Positions 4,661-15,544 of a stretch of 64,000 nucleotides of DNA are shown here, piece after piece. The DNA is from Mesoterricola sediminis (GTDB lineage Bacteria > Acidobacteriota > Holophagae > Holophagales > Holophagaceae): the NCBI RefSeq assembly GCF_030295425.1, contig NZ_AP027081.1:1922001-1986000 (forward strand), given 5' to 3'. The position numbers were made by a program, and so were the translations under genes. The notes below the pieces were generated by a model, which did not search any database, had not been told where the DNA came from, and worked only from the letters and a program-made list of their open reading frames with translations. How positions within the stretch are numbered: the stretch's first letter is position 1; the number at the start of each line of letters is the position of its first letter.

Positions 4661-6161
4661 TTCGCCTCCTCGCTGAATCGTGTGGGTAGCCCCTGCTGCT
4701 GACCGGCAAGGGGGCGATGTGGGAACCGCTTGCGGTTTCCAGCCGAAGGCCAGGGTGTGGGAGGGTTGCGGACCCGGAGGGCGGGCGGAGCCCGTTCCCC
4801 GGAGGGGAATCCGCGAGCTTTCCATGCCCGTGCATCGCCCCCGGGGTGGGTCGGGTCGAGGATCATGGAGGCATGGATACGAACGCCCTCTTCACCATGG
4901 CCCTCGGCCTCCAGGCTCCCTGGGAGGTCAAATCCCTCGACTTCAACCCCGCAGACAGGCGCCTGGATATCCTCGTGGACTTCCAGCGCGGCGCCTCCTT
5001 CCCGTGCCCGGTCTGTGGCCAGTCCAGCAAGGTCCACGACACCGAGGAGAAGACCTGGCGACATCTGGACTTCTTCCAGCACGCGGCCTATCTCACGGCC
5101 CGGGTGCCGCGTTGCAAGTGCGATGAGCACGGCGTGAAGCAGGTGCCGGTGCCCTGGGCCCGGGAGGGCTCCGGGTTCACCCTGCTGTTCGAGGCCCTGG
5201 CCATGACCCTGGTCCAGGCCATGCCGGTGGCGGCGGTGGCCCGGATCATGGGCGAGCACGACACCCGGCTTTGGCGCGTCCTCCACCATTACGTAAAGGA
5301 AGGGCGAAAGGCCAAGGACATGGCCGCCGTGACCCAGATCGGCGTCGATGATGAGACGCACTGCGTCGAATCATCCCGGCGCGGGCAGAACTACATCACC
5401 CTGTTCATGGACATGGCCACCCGGACTCTGCTGTTCGCCACCGAGGGCGGGGATACGGCCACCGCCAAGGCCTTCAAGGAGGACCTGATCGCCCACGGGG
5501 GCAAGCCCGAGAACATCGAGGAGGCCTGCATCGACATGCACCAGGCTTTCATCAACGGACTCCAGGCGTACTTCCCGAACATTCATCTGACCTTCGACCG
5601 GTTCCACGTCATGAAGATGGCCAATGAGGCCGTCGACCAGGTTCGGCGGATCGAGGCCAAGGAACACCCGGAACTCAAGCGCACTCGCTACTGCTGGCTC
5701 AAGAACCCCTCGAACCTTTCCCGCCGGCAGCGGGAGCGCCTCGACGACCTGAAGTGTTCCAACCTCCGGACTGCCGAAGCCTACCGGATGAAGCTCACGC
5801 TCCAGGACTTCTACGAGCAGGCAAACCCGACGGCCGCCGCCACCTTCCTGGAGGAATGGTGCGAGATGGCCACGGAGTCCGAGATGCTGCCGTTCGTGAA
5901 GTTCGCCCAGACCCTCCGGGACCATGCCGCCGGTGTCCTGCGCTGGTTCGTGAAGGGCCTGACCAACGGCATCCTGGAGGGCATCAACTCGCTCATCCAA
6001 GCCGCCAAGGCGAAGGCCCGAGGCTACCGGACCACCCGGAACATCATCGCCATGGCCTACCTCATCGCCGGGAAGCTCCGGTTCGATGGCCTGGAGCCCC
6101 TCTGGGGCTCGCCCCTGGGCTCGGCTACCCCGTCACCCACCTGAAACAGCGAGGAACCGAA
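4661..6161 (+). mobile_element. ISL3-family insertion sequence (complete copy)
   Basis: The terminal inverted repeats are about 27 bp and imperfect: 4661-4687 at the left and 6135-6161 at the right, sharing TTCG..TCCTCGCTG..TC..GTGGGT. Between them lies one intact transposase gene. No convincing 8-bp target duplication was seen, perhaps because a second ISL3 copy starts immediately after the right end. Confidence 0.75.
4873..6144 (+). CDS. ISL3-family transposase
   Basis: A 423-residue transposase. The N-terminal zinc-binding module has CPVCGQ and RCKCDEHG cysteine pairs. The DDE catalytic domain contains IGVDDETH, then CIDMHQAFINGL and, near the C terminus, GLTNGILEGINSLIQ carrying the last acidic residue. 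This layout and length match ISL3 transposases, which move DNA by cut-and-paste. ATG 4873 is chosen because the homologous copy at 6305 begins with the same MDT.. sequence. The in-frame upstream extension to 4717 lies in the IS leader. The frame looks intact, so the copy may be active. Confidence 0.9.
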   Translation: MDTNALFTMALGLQAPWEVKSLDFNPADRRLDILVDFQRGASFPCPVCGQSSKVHDTEEKTWRHLDFFQHAAYLTARVPRCKCDEHGVKQVPVPWAREGSGFTLLFEALAMTLVQAMPVAAVARIMGEHDTRLWRVLHHYVKEGRKAKDMAAVTQIGVDDETHCVESSRRGQNYITLFMDMATRTLLFATEGGDTATAKAFKEDLIAHGGKPENIEEACIDMHQAFINGLQAYFPNIHLTFDRFHVMKMANEAVDQVRRIEAKEHPELKRTRYCWLKNPSNLSRRQRERLDDLKCSNLRTAEAYRMKLTLQDFYEQANPTAAATFLEEWCEMATESEMLPFVKFAQTLRDHAAGVLRWFVKGLTNGILEGINSLIQAAKAKARGYRTTRNIIAMAYLIAGKLRFDGLEPLWGSPLGSATPSPT

Positions 6162-6678
6162 AGGGTCCGTCGCTGTTTCGTGTGGGTAATCGGCGGAATA
6201 GGCTGGCCAGAGACCCCGCATGTCCTTGAGGAGGAATGGGACCTCCGAGTCCAACCGGCCCGACTGGGTTTCCAGGAAAGAGAAGGGCCTGGGAAGATGG
6301 GTCCATGGATACGAAAGTGCTCTTCACCATGGCTCTGGGTCTGCAGGCCCCCTGGGAGGTCGTGGACCTCAAGTTCGACGAGGAGGCCCACCGGCTGGAC
6401 ATCCTCATCAACTTCCAGCGAGGCGCGGACTTCCCATGTCCGGTCTGCGGCCAGCCCTGCAAGGTTCACGACACCGAGGAGAGGACCTGGAGGCACATGA
6501 ACTTCTTCCATTACGCCTGCTACCTGACGGCCCGTGTCCCGCGCTGCAAGTGCGACAAGGACGGAGTCAAGCAGGTGCAGGTCCCGTGGGCGCGCCCAGG
6601 GTCCGGGTTCACCCTGATGTTCGAGGCCCTGCTGATGGTGCTGGTCCGGTCCATGACCGTGCGCGAGGCGGCGGTTGT
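6162..6678 (+). mobile_element. Truncated second ISL3 element
   Basis: The left inverted repeat (6162-6187) is closely related to that of the first ISL3 copy and lies back-to-back with the first copy's right repeat. Its transposase gene begins at 6305 and is broken near 6678, where IS256-type sequence starts. No 3' remainder of the transposase was found downstream, so the right half is deleted, not just interrupted. Confidence 0.7.
6305..6678 (+). pseudogene. ISL3 transposase, 5' fragment
   Basis: About 125 residues are clearly homologous to the N terminus of the transposase at 4873: MDTKVLFTMALGLQAPWEV, the CPVCGQ and RCKCDKDG cysteine pairs, and a FTLMFEALLMVL segment. Similarity ends after VREAAV. 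The frame then runs into IS256 end sequence and stops at 6730. It lacks the whole DDE catalytic core and cannot make a working transposase. The two copies differ at many residues, so they are related elements rather than a recent duplication. Confidence 0.85.
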
Positions 6679-7960
6679 GTATAAAAGCTTCTGTAAGTTA
6701 GCGCCCGCGCCATTCCCGGCGGCCGGGTAGCAAAGGGGCCACTGGCTCCAGTAGGTTTGAAGTTGCGAGCAAGCAAGCCTACGAAAGGAAACCAATGGCC
6801 GAGTTGAAGTTTGAGGTCCCCGAGGGGACTGTGGAAGGACTGTTTTCGCAACCGGGTGGGGAGGGCTTCCGGGTCCTGGTGGAAGCCGTGGCCCAGGCCC
6901 TGATCAATACGCAGGCCGACGCCCACTTCGGCGCCCCCTGGAACGCCCGCGGACTGGAGCGGCCCAACGGCTACCGGAACGGCTACAAGGCGCGGGGTTT
7001 TCAGACGGTGGCGGGCGCCCTGGACCTTTCGATCCCGCAGGCCAGGAACGGCGGCTTCCGGCCCACCCTCTTTGACCGCTGGCAGCGCTCCGAGCGGGCC
7101 CTGCTGGCGGCCTGCGGGGAGATGGTCCTGGCCGGCGTGTCGAACCGGAACGTGAGCCGCCTGGCCGAGGAGGCATTTGGCGCGGAGGTGAGCCCCAGTT
7201 TGGTCTCGCAGCTCGTGAAAGACCTGGAGCCTGCGGTGGAGGCATTCCGGACGCGGCCCCTGGAGACCTACCCATATCTCATTGTGGACGCCCGGTTTGA
7301 CAAGGTGCGCGAGGGGCACCGGGTGCGCAGCCGGGCCTTCCTCTGGGCCGCCGGAGTGAACGAGAAGGGTGAGCGGGAAGTCCTGGGCTGGCTGGATTGG
7401 GGCGGCGAGACGGAGGTGGCCTGGGAGGCCCTGTTCAAGGACCTGAAAGCCCGGGGCCTGAAAGGGGTGGATACCCTGGTCTCGGACGCCCACGAAGGCC
7501 TCTGTCAGGCGGCGACAAAGGCCTTCCCGGGTTCGAGTTGGCAGGAGTGCCAGGCCCACTTCCTGCGCAGGGCCATAGAGCAGGTGAAGATGGCGGATCA
7601 GAAGGCGTTCCGCGCCGACGTGAGGGCCGTTCTGCATGCCGCTGACCGGAAGCGGGCCGTTGAACTCCTGGACCTCCTCCGGGCCCACTGGGCGGAGAAA
7701 TCGCCCAAGGCGGTGGACTACGTCGAGGAGCACCTGGACAGCCTCCTGGCCGTCCTGGACCTGCCCGAGGGTCACCACAAGCGCCTACGGACCACCAACA
7801 TGGTCGAGCGCTTCAACCAGGAGCTGAAGCGAAAGAGCCGCCTGGTGCGGGTCTGGCCGAACGCCGAGAGCCGGGAGCGGATCTACGGCGCCCTCCTGAT
7901 GGAGCAGCACGAGGCCTGGACCGGCCTGGTCTGGATGCACATGGGGAGTCCTGCGTGATT
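6679..7960 (+). mobile_element. IS256-family insertion sequence (right end not resolved)
   Basis: The left boundary is the break in the ISL3 transposase at about 6678-6681, where an AT-richer end sequence begins. The transposase gene is complete. I could not find a convincing matching inverted repeat to the right of 7958, so the right boundary is only the end of the gene and the true end may lie further on or be deleted. Confidence 0.6.
6795..7958 (+). CDS. IS256-family (mutator-type) transposase
   Basis: A 387-residue transposase preceded by an AAGGAA ribosome site. It shows the family's course: an RPNGYRNGYKARGFQT region with a beta-rich N-terminal part; YLIVDARFDKV with the first catalytic Asp; TLVSDAHEGL with the second; a WQECQAHFLRR motif; and RLRTTNMVERFNQELKR with the last catalytic Glu. 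Length is typical for IS256 members. The frame is intact. It is inserted into an ISL3 transposase gene. Confidence 0.92.
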   Translation: MAELKFEVPEGTVEGLFSQPGGEGFRVLVEAVAQALINTQADAHFGAPWNARGLERPNGYRNGYKARGFQTVAGALDLSIPQARNGGFRPTLFDRWQRSERALLAACGEMVLAGVSNRNVSRLAEEAFGAEVSPSLVSQLVKDLEPAVEAFRTRPLETYPYLIVDARFDKVREGHRVRSRAFLWAAGVNEKGEREVLGWLDWGGETEVAWEALFKDLKARGLKGVDTLVSDAHEGLCQAATKAFPGSSWQECQAHFLRRAIEQVKMADQKAFRADVRAVLHAADRKRAVELLDLLRAHWAEKSPKAVDYVEEHLDSLLAVLDLPEGHHKRLRTTNMVERFNQELKRKSRLVRVWPNAESRERIYGALLMEQHEAWTGLVWMHMGSPA

Positions 7961-8481
7961 TGGTTGCGTTGGCTGCTCCAGGCCCTGAAGGCGCCGACCC
8001 ATGCTCTGTGGAGCGTACTCGGCCATGGAAAGCCTGTGGACTGCGCTGCGCGCACCGGCCCTGCGGGCCTGCCCACAAGCTTCCCACAGCCTCGGGCTAC
8101 GCCTGGAGACCGCTACGCGTTCTCCATGGGCCGCGCCCCAATTTCCTGGACCACCAGGAGGGGGTAATCAATGGAAGGCAATCAGGTGTCCGGCAGGGTG
8201 ATGCCGGAGGCGAGCCGCTGCGCAGCAGCCGGCGACAGGGGGCGGCTCATGGCATGCTGCTGCTCAAGGGCCCAGCGGCCCGTGTGGAGAACCCGGGCTT
8301 GGATGCTAACCAAAACCAGGCCGCTTCTGCTCTCCAGAAGCAGTCCACACCTGAAACAGGATCGGAATCCTGGGCGGATGGCAGCCATCAGCGAAACTCC
8401 GGGCCAGGGCAGCACTCGGGGCGGAGGCCGTAGGCCGGAGCGCCGAGTGCTGTCCTGGCCCGGGGTCTGGGGGCTCAGGGC
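7959..8481. other. Gene-free stretch between IS256 and IS21 genes
   Basis: I see no convincing gene here. The stretch should hold the right end of the IS256 element and the distal end of the IS21-type element. Short motifs at 8306-8343 (CCAAAACCAGGCC and CTGCTCTCCAGAAGCAG) recur inverted near 12101-12185 and mark the IS21 terminal repeats. A strong stem-loop lies at 8397-8465. Confidence 0.6.
8397..8465. repeat. Long stem-loop downstream of istB
   Basis: The arms 8400-8419 and 8443-8462 are complementary with one mismatch and can be extended by about three pairs on the outside. The loop is 23 nt. It lies between the istB stop and the terminal repeats and could end istA/istB transcription or be part of the transposon end; there is no T tract. 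Confidence 0.6.
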
Positions 8482-9207
8482 TCAGCCCTGTGGGTCACGC
8501 AGGGACACGCCGTTGATGCGCACCGTCTTGCACCGGTGCCGCAGCCGGCTCAGCAGGGCTTCCACCAGTCCCGGGTTGCCCAGGAAGTTCTGCCACTCAG
8601 GGAAGTCCAGGTTGGTGGTGATGATCGTGGGGTAGCGGTTGTAACGCTCCTCCATGAGCTTGAAAAAGATGTTGGTCTGCTCCGGCTTGATGTTCAGGTA
8701 GCCCAGTTCGTCGATCAGGAGGACCTGGATCCGGGACAGGCGTGTCAGGAGCTTGCGGGAGGACCTGTCCGCCAGGGAGGCGTACATCTCGTCGAACAGG
8801 TCCTGGGCGCGGATGAACAGGCCGCGGTGCCCGTTCTGCAGGGCCTTGAGGAGGATCCCGGACGCCAGCCCCGTCTTGCCCACCCCGGTCGGGCCGATGA
8901 ACACGATGTTCTCGGCCTTGGCGATGAAGTCCAGTTCACCGAAGGACCGGATCTGGCGCTGGTTGACGGAGGGCTGCTGCTTGTAGGGGAAGCTCTCCAG
9001 GGTCCAGTTCTCCGGAAGCCTGGCCTGCCGGATCCGGTAGGCCATCGCCGATTCCTGCTGGTGATGCCATTGCGCCCGCAGCAGCCGCGCCAGGAACTCC
9101 TCGTAGGAGGGCTCCTCCTTGGCGGCCTCCGCCAACTCCTGGTCCAGGATCTCGGCCATCCGCCCCAGATGCAGGTTTCTGAGCAGTTGCTCCAAGTCAT
9201 CCTTCAT
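8482..9207 (-). CDS. istB: IstB-like ATP-binding transposition helper (IS21 family)
   Basis: A 241-residue AAA+ protein. An N-terminal IstB helix region is followed by Walker A FIGPTGVGKTGLA, a Walker B-like VLLIDELGYL and a sensor region TIITTNLDFPEW. In IS21 systems IstB is the ATP-dependent helper that selects target DNA and activates the IstA transposase. Its ATG overlaps the istA stop by 11 bp, and AAGGAGG lies 6 bp upstream of the start, inside istA, so translation is probably coupled. Confidence 0.93.
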   Translation of the reverse strand: MKDDLEQLLRNLHLGRMAEILDQELAEAAKEEPSYEEFLARLLRAQWHHQQESAMAYRIRQARLPENWTLESFPYKQQPSVNQRQIRSFGELDFIAKAENIVFIGPTGVGKTGLASGILLKALQNGHRGLFIRAQDLFDEMYASLADRSSRKLLTRLSRIQVLLIDELGYLNIKPEQTNIFFKLMEERYNRYPTIITTNLDFPEWQNFLGNPGLVEALLSRLRHRCKTVRINGVSLRDPQG

Positions 9208-10630
9208 GGTCGTCCTCCTTGGGATCAGGGGTGGGGTCGCCGGCGGTGTCTCCGAGTACGAAGTACTCCCGGGCGATGTGCCGAAGCACCATCCGGTCCA
9301 GCCGCTCCAGGTCGAACAGGCCGTATTCCAGGGCGGTCCCGATGGCGGCCAGCAGCGGGGCGCGGGGGTAGTCCCGGACCATGGCCTGCAGCCGCCTCAG
9401 CATGCGCAGCATCCGGCCCGGATGCCGGACCCGGAAGGCGGCGACGTACCCGGCCAGGGCCGGCTCTGCCAGCAGCAGGTCCACCTCCTCAGGGCTGGTG
9501 GTTCGTTTGCTCCGGCCCTGGCCGCGAGGGGCCCGGTGGGCGGGATCGATCACCCGCTGGCCGGAGGCGTCCAGCACCTTGCGGTGGGTAGCCACCTGCC
9601 TTGGACCAACAAAGACCTCGATCTGGTCGCGGGTCTCCCGCACTTCGAGCTGGTGGCCGATCAGCGCATAGGGGATGGAGTAGCGGTTGCCTCCGATGCT
9701 GACGAAGCCCTGGATGTCCCCGATCCTCTGGTGGAGCTGGTAGACGGTGGGGACCCAGATGGGCAGCGGCCTGAGCTGGGTCCGCTCCTCCAGGAACAGC
9801 TCCCTCGGGCTGGCCTGGAGGCTGCGCTTGCGGGTGGCGTTGACCTTCTCGCACCAGTCCCGGGCCTGCCGGTTGAGATCGTCCCAGTCCCGGAATTCGC
9901 GGCCGGCCAGGAAGTTGTTCTCGATGTAATCGAATGGCCGCTCCACCCGGGCGCTGCGGTTGGCATGGCCCAGCGCATGGGCGCGGAACTCGAATCCGAA
10001 CCGCTCGGCGAATGCCGCCATCTCCGGCGCGGGGATCATGGACGCCCCCGTGCCCTGGGACACCACCACGTGGGTGTTGTCGATCATGCAGCGGGCGCAG
10101 GCCCCACCAAAGAACTGCAGGGCTTCCGTGAGGAACACCTTGCACCAGAAGCGGTTGAAGGTCGGGTAGTACTGGTGGAACAGCATCCGGGAATGGCAGA
10201 GCACCAGGCTTGCGTCCTGGATGAGGAGCATCCGCTCCCCGATCCGCACCCGGTGCGGACTGGTGTCGTGCTGCATCTCCTCGCCGGGTTGGAAATGGTA
10301 TTCCCCGGAGGGCTGGGGTCCCGGGTGGCCGATGCCGTGGCGGCGGCAGAACCCCGTCAGCGCCTGGTAGGACAGGTCGGCGCCGCGTTCGCGCAGGATC
10401 TCGTGGACCCGGATCAGGTTGCCCTTGCAGGCCGGGAACAGTTCCAGGATCTCCTCCCGGTGCGGCTCGGCCTTCTCCGGCCGCTGGTTTTCGGGGATCG
10501 TCGGGGCCCCTGCCGCCAGCACCCGGCCCACGGTGTCCCGCGAGGCCCTCACGGCCCGGGCGATGCCCCGGATCGTGTGCCCCTGCTCGCGGAGCACCAG
10601 GATGGCGGTCCGTTTCGACTCGTCAAGCAT
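9197..10630 (-). CDS. istA: IS21-family transposase IstA
   Basis: A 477-residue DDE transposase. The N-terminal helix-turn-helix (ILVLREQGHTIRGIARA.. and a second SRDTVGRVL helix) is followed by a catalytic core in which LLIQDASLVL and CMIDNTHVVV supply acidic residues and ARVERPFDYIENNFL the final Glu. The C-terminal beta-barrel region (FVSIGGNRYSIPYAL) is typical of IstA. The start at 10630 overlaps the upstream ParB-like stop by 8 bp; the frame is open further upstream but only as a shadow of that gene. The chain looks intact. Confidence 0.92.
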   Translation of the reverse strand: MLDESKRTAILVLREQGHTIRGIARAVRASRDTVGRVLAAGAPTIPENQRPEKAEPHREEILELFPACKGNLIRVHEILRERGADLSYQALTGFCRRHGIGHPGPQPSGEYHFQPGEEMQHDTSPHRVRIGERMLLIQDASLVLCHSRMLFHQYYPTFNRFWCKVFLTEALQFFGGACARCMIDNTHVVVSQGTGASMIPAPEMAAFAERFGFEFRAHALGHANRSARVERPFDYIENNFLAGREFRDWDDLNRQARDWCEKVNATRKRSLQASPRELFLEERTQLRPLPIWVPTVYQLHQRIGDIQGFVSIGGNRYSIPYALIGHQLEVRETRDQIEVFVGPRQVATHRKVLDASGQRVIDPAHRAPRGQGRSKRTTSPEEVDLLLAEPALAGYVAAFRVRHPGRMLRMLRRLQAMVRDYPRAPLLAAIGTALEYGLFDLERLDRMVLRHIAREYFVLGDTAGDPTPDPKEDDHEG

Positions 10631-11504
10631 GGGGCAGCTCTCGCTCGCTGCGCTGGAACAGGGCCTGGCAGTCGCCGGCGGCCTGGCGCAGGGCGGCGCT
10701 GGCCTCCTGGACCTCCGACGCGGAGTGGTGCAGGACCAGCGCCCCGCGGCCCAGGTGCTGCTTGGCCCTGCGGGCCACCGCCGCCAGGGTGCCCAGGTCC
10801 TCCAGCCAGAGATGGAACGGGTTGGCCAGGCCCTCCGGGGCCGCCAGGGCCCGCTGGGAGCGGAGGAACAGCACGGGATCGGCCAGGAGGCGTTCACGGG
10901 CCTCGGCCCGGCTTTGCTGCCAGGCGGCCTTGAGGGCCACGGCCTCCCGGGTGGTGAACGGGGCCTTCAGCAGGGCCGTGCACAGGTTCAGGCAGTCCCG
11001 GCGGTTGGCGCGCGCCAACGGGACCAGGACCTTCATGGCGGTGTGGGCGGAAAGCCGGCCGAATAGCACGTGCTCCTGCACCTCGCCGGGCAGTTCCTCC
11101 ACCAGGGCCAGCCGCCGGGATACCCAGCTCGGGGTGCGCCCGAAACGCCTGGCCAGTTCCTCGGGCGGCATCTGGAACCGGTCCCGCAGCTCGCACAGGA
11201 ACCATGCCTCCTCCAGGGCGCTGTCCGGCTCAGAGGTCCGCATCATCCGCTCCAGCAGCAGGGCATCGACCTCGCCCAGGTACCAGAGGGCGGCCTCCAG
11301 CGTGTCCCGCTTCAGGCGGCGCAGGGCCCGGAAACGCTTGTAGCCGTCCAGGAGGGCGTAACGGTCCTGCCCCAGGGCCAGCACCACCACCGGCACCTTC
11401 TGGCCATCCGCGGCCAGGGAGGCCAGCAGTTGACGCTCGCCCTGGGGATCACGGCGACGCAGATGCTCGTAGCGGAGATCGATCTGGTGGAATTCGAGGT
11501 CCAT
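10623..11504 (-). CDS. ParB-like nuclease/HTH-domain protein carried by the IS21 element
   Basis: A 293-residue protein. The N-terminal ParB/Srx fold has a VPVVVL..DRYALLDGYKRFRAL segment (the GYKR-type motif replaces the usual GERR/GHRR). The central helix-turn-helix block reads MPPEELARRFGRTPSWVSRR. The C-terminal part is helical and unlike chromosomal ParB. ATG 11504 is preferred over TTG 11528. It is translationally coupled to istA (8-bp overlap), so it is likely part of the transposition unit. Its role is unknown: it may bind the repeated ends, regulate istAB, or influence target choice. No parA lies nearby, so a normal partition role is unlikely. Confidence 0.8.
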   Translation of the reverse strand: MDLEFHQIDLRYEHLRRRDPQGERQLLASLAADGQKVPVVVLALGQDRYALLDGYKRFRALRRLKRDTLEAALWYLGEVDALLLERMMRTSEPDSALEEAWFLCELRDRFQMPPEELARRFGRTPSWVSRRLALVEELPGEVQEHVLFGRLSAHTAMKVLVPLARANRRDCLNLCTALLKAPFTTREAVALKAAWQQSRAEARERLLADPVLFLRSQRALAAPEGLANPFHLWLEDLGTLAAVARRAKQHLGRGALVLHHSASEVQEASAALRQAAGDCQALFQRSERELPHA

Positions 11505-11677
11505 GGCGCCACCCGAAAGGACGGCCAACAGGGTAGGAAACCCCGGGGGAGCCTTTCGAGGTCGTCTCGCAGGTGGAGGGGGGGAAGTATGTCTTTATTT
11601 TATTGATTCCATAGGAGGTTGGGCGGAAGCTGCGTCTCGCGGCCGGGAAATATCATGTTTGTCGATACCTCGTGATT

Positions 11678-12022
11678 TCATTTGAGTTGCACGAGAACTG
11701 CGTCTCGCGCCTGGCGCAGGAGGACTTTGCCGCTCTCCTCGACCAGGGCGCTGATTTCCAGCCCGACCACCTTCCGGGCGTAGCGCCAGTCGATGGCCTC
11801 CGCAGGCACCGTCCCCTTTCCCCCGGCCCCCACCTGCACCAACTTGGCGGTGAACCGGGTGTGGCGGTCGTAGTCCGGGTCCCGGTCATGGAACCGGGCG
11901 CAGGCCCGCCGGTGCCGCTCCTTCTGGCAGGAGGGGGCCCCGCAGACGCGCTGCCGCTCCCCAACCATCCGGTCTGGGTGGAACCATTTCCTGCAAATAA
12001 GGCAGGGCCGAGCCTTGAGCAT
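11678..12022 (-). CDS. Small zinc-ribbon-like protein, first gene of the IS21-type element
   Basis: A 114-residue protein with a clear CxxC...CxxxxC pattern in its first 40 residues (CLIC, then CGAPSC), followed by a basic RHRRACARFHDRD region. This suggests a zinc-binding, possibly nucleic-acid-binding, domain. The start at ATG 12022 is set by AAGGAGG 5-6 bp upstream. It lies inside the inverted terminal repeats, 173 bp before the ParB-like gene and in the same direction. I do not recognise the family. Regulator of the element or accessory transposition factor are guesses only. Confidence 0.65.
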   Translation of the reverse strand: MLKARPCLICRKWFHPDRMVGERQRVCGAPSCQKERHRRACARFHDRDPDYDRHTRFTAKLVQVGAGGKGTVPAEAIDWRYARKVVGLEISALVEESGKVLLRQARDAVLVQLK

Positions 12023-12289
12023 GCCGGGCCTCCTTGGAAAGGGGGTGCTCAAGCCTGTCCGGCCTCCACGCTCGGGACCAGGGGGAACAAGGAGAGGTGG
12101 CCGATTCTGGAGAGCAGGGATGCTCAGGTCTCAGCCGCCGATGGCCTGGTTTTGGAGAGCAGGCCTATGCCGATTCTGGAGAGCGTCGAAGACCAAGTAG
12201 AGCATCCTCCTGGTGGAGTTCACTACCACGCAGCAGCAGCGAGCAACACCGCCAGTGCCTTTCCTACGGGAACGATCCAGGGCAGCAGC

Positions 12290-14479: not shown

Positions 14480-15544
14480 TCAGCCCTCGTCTTCCTCTTC
14501 CGCCTCGCGCTCCAGCGCCTCCAGCAGGTCCTCCGCAGTGGGCTCCTCGTCATGCTCCCCCACCTCGGGCAGCCGTCCCGGGTGGGTGGCGGCGTGGACG
14601 CTCTTGAGCAGGCGGATGCTCACCTGCGTGTAGATCTGCGTCGTGCTCAGTTCCACGTGGCCGAGCATGGCCTGGATGAACCGGATGTCCGCGCCACCCT
14701 CCAGCATCAGCGTCGCCATCGTGTGCCGGAACAGGTGGCAGGCGCCCTTCTTGCCGACCCCCGACTTCTCCACGTAGACCCGCACCAGCCGCGTCATGGC
14801 GTTGGGCGTGAACGCCTCACCCCATTCGGACAGGAACAGCGTGCCGTCGTCCCTGGCGGCCACCAGGTCCGGCCTGGCGCTCTCCTTGTAGCGCTGGACC
14901 CAGGCCAGGGCCCGCTCCCCGATCGGGATCATCCGGTCCTTGCGGCCCTTGCCCTGGCGGATCATCACCGTCCCGCGCTCGGCGTCGATGCTGTGCACCG
15001 TGAGGTTGATCAGCTCCAGCCGGCGCATCCCGGTGCTGTAGAAGGTCTCCAGGATGGCCCGGTCGCGTAGGCCGGAGGCGTTGCCCAGGTCCGGCACCGC
15101 CAGCACCGTCTCCGCCTCCCGGGCGCTGAGGATGGCCTTGGGCAGCCGCTTCTCCAGCCGGGGCAGCTCCAGGTCCGTGGCCGGGCTGTAGAGCAGGTGC
15201 CCCTTCTTCACCAACCAGGAGAACCAATGCCGGATCGGGATGATCCGGCTGTGCTGGCTGCGCGTCGAGAGCGGCTCGCCGTCGGCCTTGCGGTAGTAGA
15301 ACAGGTAGCGCTGGTAGCGCTCCAGGATGGGCCGGTCGATCTCCTGGGGCTTGGTCAGGCCCCGGTCGTCGCACCAGGCGATGAGATAGCGCAGGTAGCT
15401 TTCCCGGGTTTCGATGGTGCGCGGGCTGTAGTTCTTCTCGGCCAAGTGCTCCAGGTAGCGGAGCATGTGGTGATACAGGCTGTCCGGATCCCGGACATCC
15501 CCCACCGGGGGCTTCACGGCGCGTTTCTGGCCCTTCTTCGGCAT
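14480..15544 (-). CDS. Tyrosine recombinase (XerC/XerD-like phage-type integrase)
   Basis: A 354-residue site-specific recombinase. The N-terminal SAM-like DNA-binding domain (residues 20-125) is followed by the catalytic domain with the expected residues: Arg174 in TGMRRLEL, Lys199 in QGKGRKDR, His270 and Arg273 in HLFRHTMAT, His296 in LGHVELS and nucleophile Tyr305 in TQIYTQ. A Glu-rich acidic tail of about 40 residues ends the protein. It starts 18 bp after the primase stop in the same direction, so the two are probably co-transcribed. This position points to integration/excision of a mobile element rather than chromosome dimer resolution. Confidence 0.9.
   Translation of the reverse strand: MPKKGQKRAVKPPVGDVRDPDSLYHHMLRYLEHLAEKNYSPRTIETRESYLRYLIAWCDDRGLTKPQEIDRPILERYQRYLFYYRKADGEPLSTRSQHSRIIPIRHWFSWLVKKGHLLYSPATDLELPRLEKRLPKAILSAREAETVLAVPDLGNASGLRDRAILETFYSTGMRRLELINLTVHSIDAERGTVMIRQGKGRKDRMIPIGERALAWVQRYKESARPDLVAARDDGTLFLSEWGEAFTPNAMTRLVRVYVEKSGVGKKGACHLFRHTMATLMLEGGADIRFIQAMLGHVELSTTQIYTQVSIRLLKSVHAATHPGRLPEVGEHDEEPTAEDLLEALEREAEEEDEG

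Follow-up and report, generated by a model that had tools for sequence, protein, structure and literature searches.

Genes and ends of the element

The window, a 64,000-bp stretch of the Mesoterricola sediminis chromosome, carries a mobile element of 3894 bp (8298 to 12191, minus strand) whose four genes all lie on one strand between 12022 and 8482, in the order zinc-ribbon gene, ParB-like gene, istA, and istB. The zinc-ribbon gene (11678 to 12022, minus strand) encodes 114 aa from an ATG at 12022 behind AAGGAGG, or 124 aa from a TTG at 12052, and its protein has four invariant cysteines; no Pfam or NCBIfam model matched it, and comparison with the PDB gave no match. The ParB-like gene (10623 to 11504, minus strand; 293 aa) encodes ParB N and ParB HTH domains and a C-terminal part outside the ParB matches. 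The start of istA (9200 to 10630, minus strand; 477 aa, DDE transposase) overlaps parB by 8 bp (ATGCTTGA), and the start of istB (8482 to 9207, minus strand; 241 aa, AAA+ helper ATPase) overlaps istA by 11 bp. An earlier note on this DNA had placed the zinc-ribbon gene first and given the ParB/istA overlap as 8 bp, and both descriptions are exact.

The transposition proteins are of the IS21 type. IstA matched the transpos_IS21 model above its cut-off (NF033546, 1.4e-48) as well as the IS5376 IstA structures (3.8e-51), and it conserves the catalytic residues D122, D184, and E230. IstB, encoded directly downstream, matched IS21_help_AAA above its cut-off (NF038214, 1.3e-67). No sigma-70-like promoter was recognised, and no known RNA family reached its gathering score. 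Elsewhere in the window are a tyrosine recombinase gene near the element (14480 to 15544) and a pile-up of insertion sequences (4873 to 7958) comprising an ISL3-type transposase, a truncated second ISL3 copy (6305 to 6730), and a Mutator-type (IS256-like) transposase at the broken end of the latter.

The termini of the element are CTTGGATGCT (left) and AGCGTCGAAG (right), and a second copy defines them as those of a complete unit. The chromosome (4.52 Mb, one contig) holds this one other copy (L041, 3950 to 7843; G000:C1, about 2808949 to 2812842), which is 100% identical to the window copy across 3894 bp, diverges at 8298 and 12191, and has unrelated flanks. The span of 8306 to 12190 proposed earlier was therefore right as a single mobile unit and is corrected by copy 2 at both ends. 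Each end carries GCTCTCCARAAYCRGGCC-type units in inverted order, as the earlier note had proposed for its multi-copy terminal repeats: three at the zinc-gene end (12100 to 12191, minus strand; GCTCTCCARAAYCRGGC repeats starting at 12184, 12160, and 12115) and two at the istB end (8298 to 8345, plus strand; GCTAACCAAAACCAGGCC and GCTCTCCAGAAGCAG). All four genes lie within the ends of both copies and, in agreement with the same note, no parA lies between them.

Copy 2 sits inside a gene for an NHLP-type bacteriocin export ABC transporter and is bracketed by a 7-bp target duplication, gccgcga. When its flanks are joined with one repeat, an open frame is regained that matches NHLM_micro_ABC1 across the junction; because the exporter frame is restored once copy 2 is removed, the four-gene unit inserted as one piece. 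Despite the identity of the two copies, we found no target duplication in the flanks of the window copy (8280 to 8297 and 12192 to 12210), which deletion or recombination beside it likely explains. We regard it as nearly certain that the element is a real transposon, related to IS21 and carrying four genes.

Relatives and the ParB-like partner

We surveyed 396 Acidobacteriota genomes for close IstA proteins (E below 1e-30) and covered other phyla through plasmid records only. Close IstA proteins occur in 8 of the 396 genomes, and in all 8 parB stands directly upstream; the ParB gene is a fixed partner of this IstA clade. The four-gene order, which the earlier note had suggested seeking in other genomes, recurs within matching ends elsewhere in the Acidobacteriota and on a Desulforapulum plasmid. 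Contigs of metagenome-assembled genomes may be chimeric. Two such genomes, of Holophagaceae, carry copies that are about 93% alike mutually and about 80% identical in DNA to that of the window (L026 and L028); the ends of both enclose all four genes, and L028 has a 7-bp duplication, AACCGGC. Matching ends also surround the four genes in L030, L032, L033, L036, and L054, and the L032 contig starts and stops exactly at the 10-bp ends of its element. Among elements with visible ends, none excluded the ParB-like and zinc-ribbon genes, the counterexample named in the earlier note.

The Desulforapulum unit, from another phylum, occupies 4.7 kb of pHRM2a (L042, 3063 to 7799), with ends CTATGGCGCTCA and an 8-bp duplication, GTGGAGGC. 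Besides the zinc protein, ParB, IstA, and IstB, it encodes a CHC2 zinc-ribbon protein; identity is 24 to 30% for ParB and IstA. Target duplications thus measure 7 bp (copy 2 and L028), 8 bp (L042), or 5 bp (L036), and none was found at L026, L030, or the window copy. Every element with a target duplication has the termini 5'-CT...AG-3'. These comparisons bear on the simplest alternative, an ordinary IS21 that captured neighbouring genes by chance once in this lineage. Its IstA and IstB are indeed bona fide IS21-type proteins; however, the same order is found in two phyla between which the proteins are 24 to 30% identical and the ends and duplications independent, and since gene order is conserved across phyla a single chance capture is contradicted and, in our view, highly improbable.

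In a tree of IstA that contains several long branches, 13 ParB-linked sequences fall on one side of a branch with 100/100 support. A divergent ParB-linked element (L039) falls on the classical IS21 side and has a NinG-like zinc-finger ORF upstream; the ParB link may thus be older or may have been gained a second time. In ten plasmid IS21 loci that we compared, istA had no annotated ParB gene in front of it, ParB searches of plasmids found none in an IS21 context besides Desulforapulum, and no relatives were found in phages and viral contigs. Among open-licence papers, we found none that describes an IS21 with ParB or zinc-ribbon genes, and an earlier naming elsewhere (e.g., ISfinder) is possible.

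The ParB-like protein resembles ParB/Spo0J/Noc proteins by profile in its N-terminal ParB domain and its HTH domain. It scored above the Pfam cut-off with HTH_ParB (2.7e-06), below the cut-off with parB_part (4.4e-12), and at 4.8e-19 with the Spo0J profile in hmmsearch (profile positions 9 to 195). It differs from those proteins in having no parA, in a C-terminal part unlike ParB, and in the fixation of its gene to a transposase operon. The positions that align with the ENxxR motif of ParB, moreover, are not conserved, and a CTP-driven clamp is for that reason doubtful. No sign was found that the protein binds the end repeats. A structure model built from a six-row alignment was of low confidence (mean pLDDT 61), too poor for a structure search.

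The iteron array and the zinc-ribbon gene

Between the zinc-ribbon and ParB-like genes lies an array of three GCGCGAGACGC-type iterons (11562 to 11710, minus strand; copies at 11700 to 11710, 11632 to 11642, and 11562 to 11572, spaced 68 and 70 bp). The iteron at 11700 to 11710 falls inside the 3' end of the zinc gene, from which the array extends toward parB. Across elements the motif is 11 to 14 bp long and occurs in three copies about 68 to 71 bp apart, with a first interval of 78 to 81 bp in the Desulforapulum type. Three-copy arrays are present in the window element and in L026, L028, L029, L030, L031, and L036, with a variant form in L054; L042 has three GATTGCAAAGATGG copies, 81 and 71 bp apart; and L032 and L033 have two copies of a different motif, GGTCACGCGCCGGC, 70 bp apart. 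No array was found in L034, and L035 has one clear copy only. In dinucleotide shuffles of each of six elements, a pair at 67- to 70-bp spacing arose in 0 to 0.3% and two pairs in 0 of 3000. The possibility of a CRISPR-like or guide array was rejected because in L029 and the window the stretches between iterons themselves recur in part from one unit to the next, and so are not unique spacers.

Our first idea was that the ParB-like protein reads the three iterons as parS-like sites and forms with them a complex that is autoregulatory or resembles a partition complex. In favour of this, repeated sites are common targets of ParB families; the N domain and HTH of the protein are of ParB type and are recognised by the Spo0J profile; and in the Acidobacteriota elements the array immediately precedes parB. 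Two comparisons disfavour this idea. L032 and L054 have ParB proteins that are 74% identical and IstA proteins that are 79% identical, yet their zinc proteins share 22% identity and their iteron motifs are wholly different; DNA similarity between the two begins exactly at the parB start codon. Conversely, zinc proteins like that of L042 (36 to 39% identity) are encoded on plasmids of Methylibium, Variovorax, and Paraburkholderia (L065 to L067; Burkholderiales, Betaproteobacteria), where the same GATTGCAAAGA motif occurs three times, spaced 78 to 81 and 68 to 71 bp, while the ParB-type proteins encoded there show no significant BLAST similarity to the L042 ParB. With the ENxxR region also not conserved, we consider an array-reading ParB unlikely.

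By sequence comparison, then, the array moves together with the zinc gene rather than with ParB, and the zinc gene is an exchangeable cassette that occurs also without ParB or without IstA/IstB. The tight coupling described in the earlier note accordingly holds for the parB-istA overlap and fails for the zinc gene, which stands 163 bp from parB. In the zinc branch of the L042/L065-L067 type, the first two iterons lie in frame within the zinc gene and are preserved down to their synonymous bases, a pattern that speaks for selection acting on the nucleic acid itself. In L065 to L067 the zinc gene precedes a serine recombinase gene and two ParB-type genes. As a separate observation, these zinc gene-serine recombinase-ParB-RepB-C clusters, with their three GATTGCAAAGATGG-type iterons, are possibly an undescribed type of mobile element.

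A zinc-protein gene can also accompany IS21 without ParB. In three IS21 elements (L068, L069, and L070), an ORF for a zinc protein of a further type, mostly unannotated, lies immediately before istA, and two of the three (L068 and L070) also have a small ORF that overlaps the end of istB; these ParB-free elements have no iteron array. The statement that classic IS21 has only istA and istB, taken up by the earlier note and consistent with the published description of what lies between its ends (PMC10122671), therefore needs a caveat for several plasmid elements.

Proposed working, known systems, and fifth genes

Our preferred reading, to which we assign a probability of roughly 0.6 as a whole, is that the window element is a complete, recently active IS21-related transposon with a zinc/iteron control cassette and a ParB-like transposition cofactor, and that it belongs to a deep sub-branch within the IS21-like elements, one whose fixed third gene encodes a ParB-like protein. 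IstA would cut and join the element ends with the assistance of IstB, as in IS21. The ParB-like protein, translated just ahead of istA and overlapping it, would probably be a DNA-organising cofactor of the transposition complex that holds the ends or the target, or restrains IstA/IstB. Because no parA is present, it would not serve replicon partitioning. The zinc protein would most likely bind the iterons and set transcription of the parB-istA-istB operon. From position and co-variation, we infer that zinc protein and array most probably control the operon behind them; the array could instead be recognised by RNA polymerase, by a host factor, or by a different protein of the element, or it could function as RNA. 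The earlier suggestion that the zinc-ribbon and ParB-like genes take part in transposition, target choice, or regulation is thus plausible.

IS21, the textbook example of a two-gene transposon assisted by an AAA+ protein, also serves as a structural model for Mu and Tn7; target duplications in its family are short, about 4 to 8 bp. With the IS21 family (IS21 and IS5376) the window element shares overlapping istA and istB, the DDE residues, an IstB AAA+ helper, inverted ends of repeated units, and short target duplications. It differs in having two further genes always inside the ends and an internal three-iteron array, in an IstA that belongs to a separate deep branch, and in ends of the form CT...AG rather than the CA of IS5376 (typical of the family, not strictly defining). 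Since four genes, five in some relatives, lie inside the ends, we regard it as an IS21 variant and not a standard member. The chemistry of IstA and IstB in IS5376, the catalytic CA dinucleotide at its ends, and the inverted ends of two or more repeated units in the IS21 family are established (PMC10122671, PMC11208146).

The control cassette may reach beyond this family. The Betaproteobacterial clusters share with the Desulforapulum element a homologous zinc protein and GATTGCAAAGATGG iterons, and they too have ParB-type genes; they differ in a serine recombinase in place of IstA/IstB and in ParB proteins not detectably related to that of L042. We suggest tentatively, at somewhat under even odds, that zinc gene and array form a portable control module that has entered mobile elements of unrelated mechanism, DDE transposons with IstA/IstB as well as serine-recombinase elements, in several phyla, and that together with the ParB-like and optional primase genes it would constitute an undescribed regulatory layer of transposition. 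If true, a zinc protein with evenly spaced iterons would be a general mobile-DNA switch. Bacteriophage Mu and Tn7 likewise combine a DDE transposase and an AAA+ partner (MuB/TnsC-like) with additional element-encoded control. No MuA, TnsA-D, or TniQ homologue was recognised in the element, and a zinc-ribbon/array cassette would represent a different type of control. That one branch has kept a ParB-like third protein in two phyla suggests that an additional subunit, architectural or regulatory, can belong to the transposition complex. The ParB-like protein and the exchangeable zinc gene with its three iterons point to a larger and apparently undescribed set of controls within a well-known transposon family. 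New here are the three-iteron array, its travelling with the zinc gene, and a primase-type gene in some relatives.

That last gene is one of several found after istB in relatives, inside the ends wherever these are visible, so that L030, L032, L042, and L054 are five-gene elements. It encodes a RepB-type primase in L030 (3810 to 4601) and L031 (3746 to 4531), with matches to 3h25 (5.5e-10) and Pfam RepB_primase_C; a winged-helix protein weakly similar to initiators in L054; a CHC2, DnaG-type zinc ribbon in L042; and a short protein of no assigned kind in L032 and L033. Because these products resemble plasmid replication proteins, the zinc-ribbon, ParB-like, and fifth genes might together be passengers derived from the partition, primase, and initiator genes of replicons, serving plasmid-like maintenance and dispensable for transposition. 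We think this improbable: ParB accompanies all close IstA relatives in overlapping reading frames, unlike cargo, and the fifth gene is missing from the window element and variable elsewhere. The fifth genes of some relatives, whether for a RepB-type primase, a DnaG zinc ribbon, or an initiator-like protein, offer a testable link from transposition to replication priming.

At the position of the fifth gene, the window element has a very stable hairpin with arms of about 34 bp (8396 to 8466, minus strand), terminator-like but without a T run; L026 and L028 have a hairpin there with a different arm sequence. A special priming site at this hairpin is disfavoured, as L038 has an ordinary T-run terminator at that place and several other relatives have hairpins.
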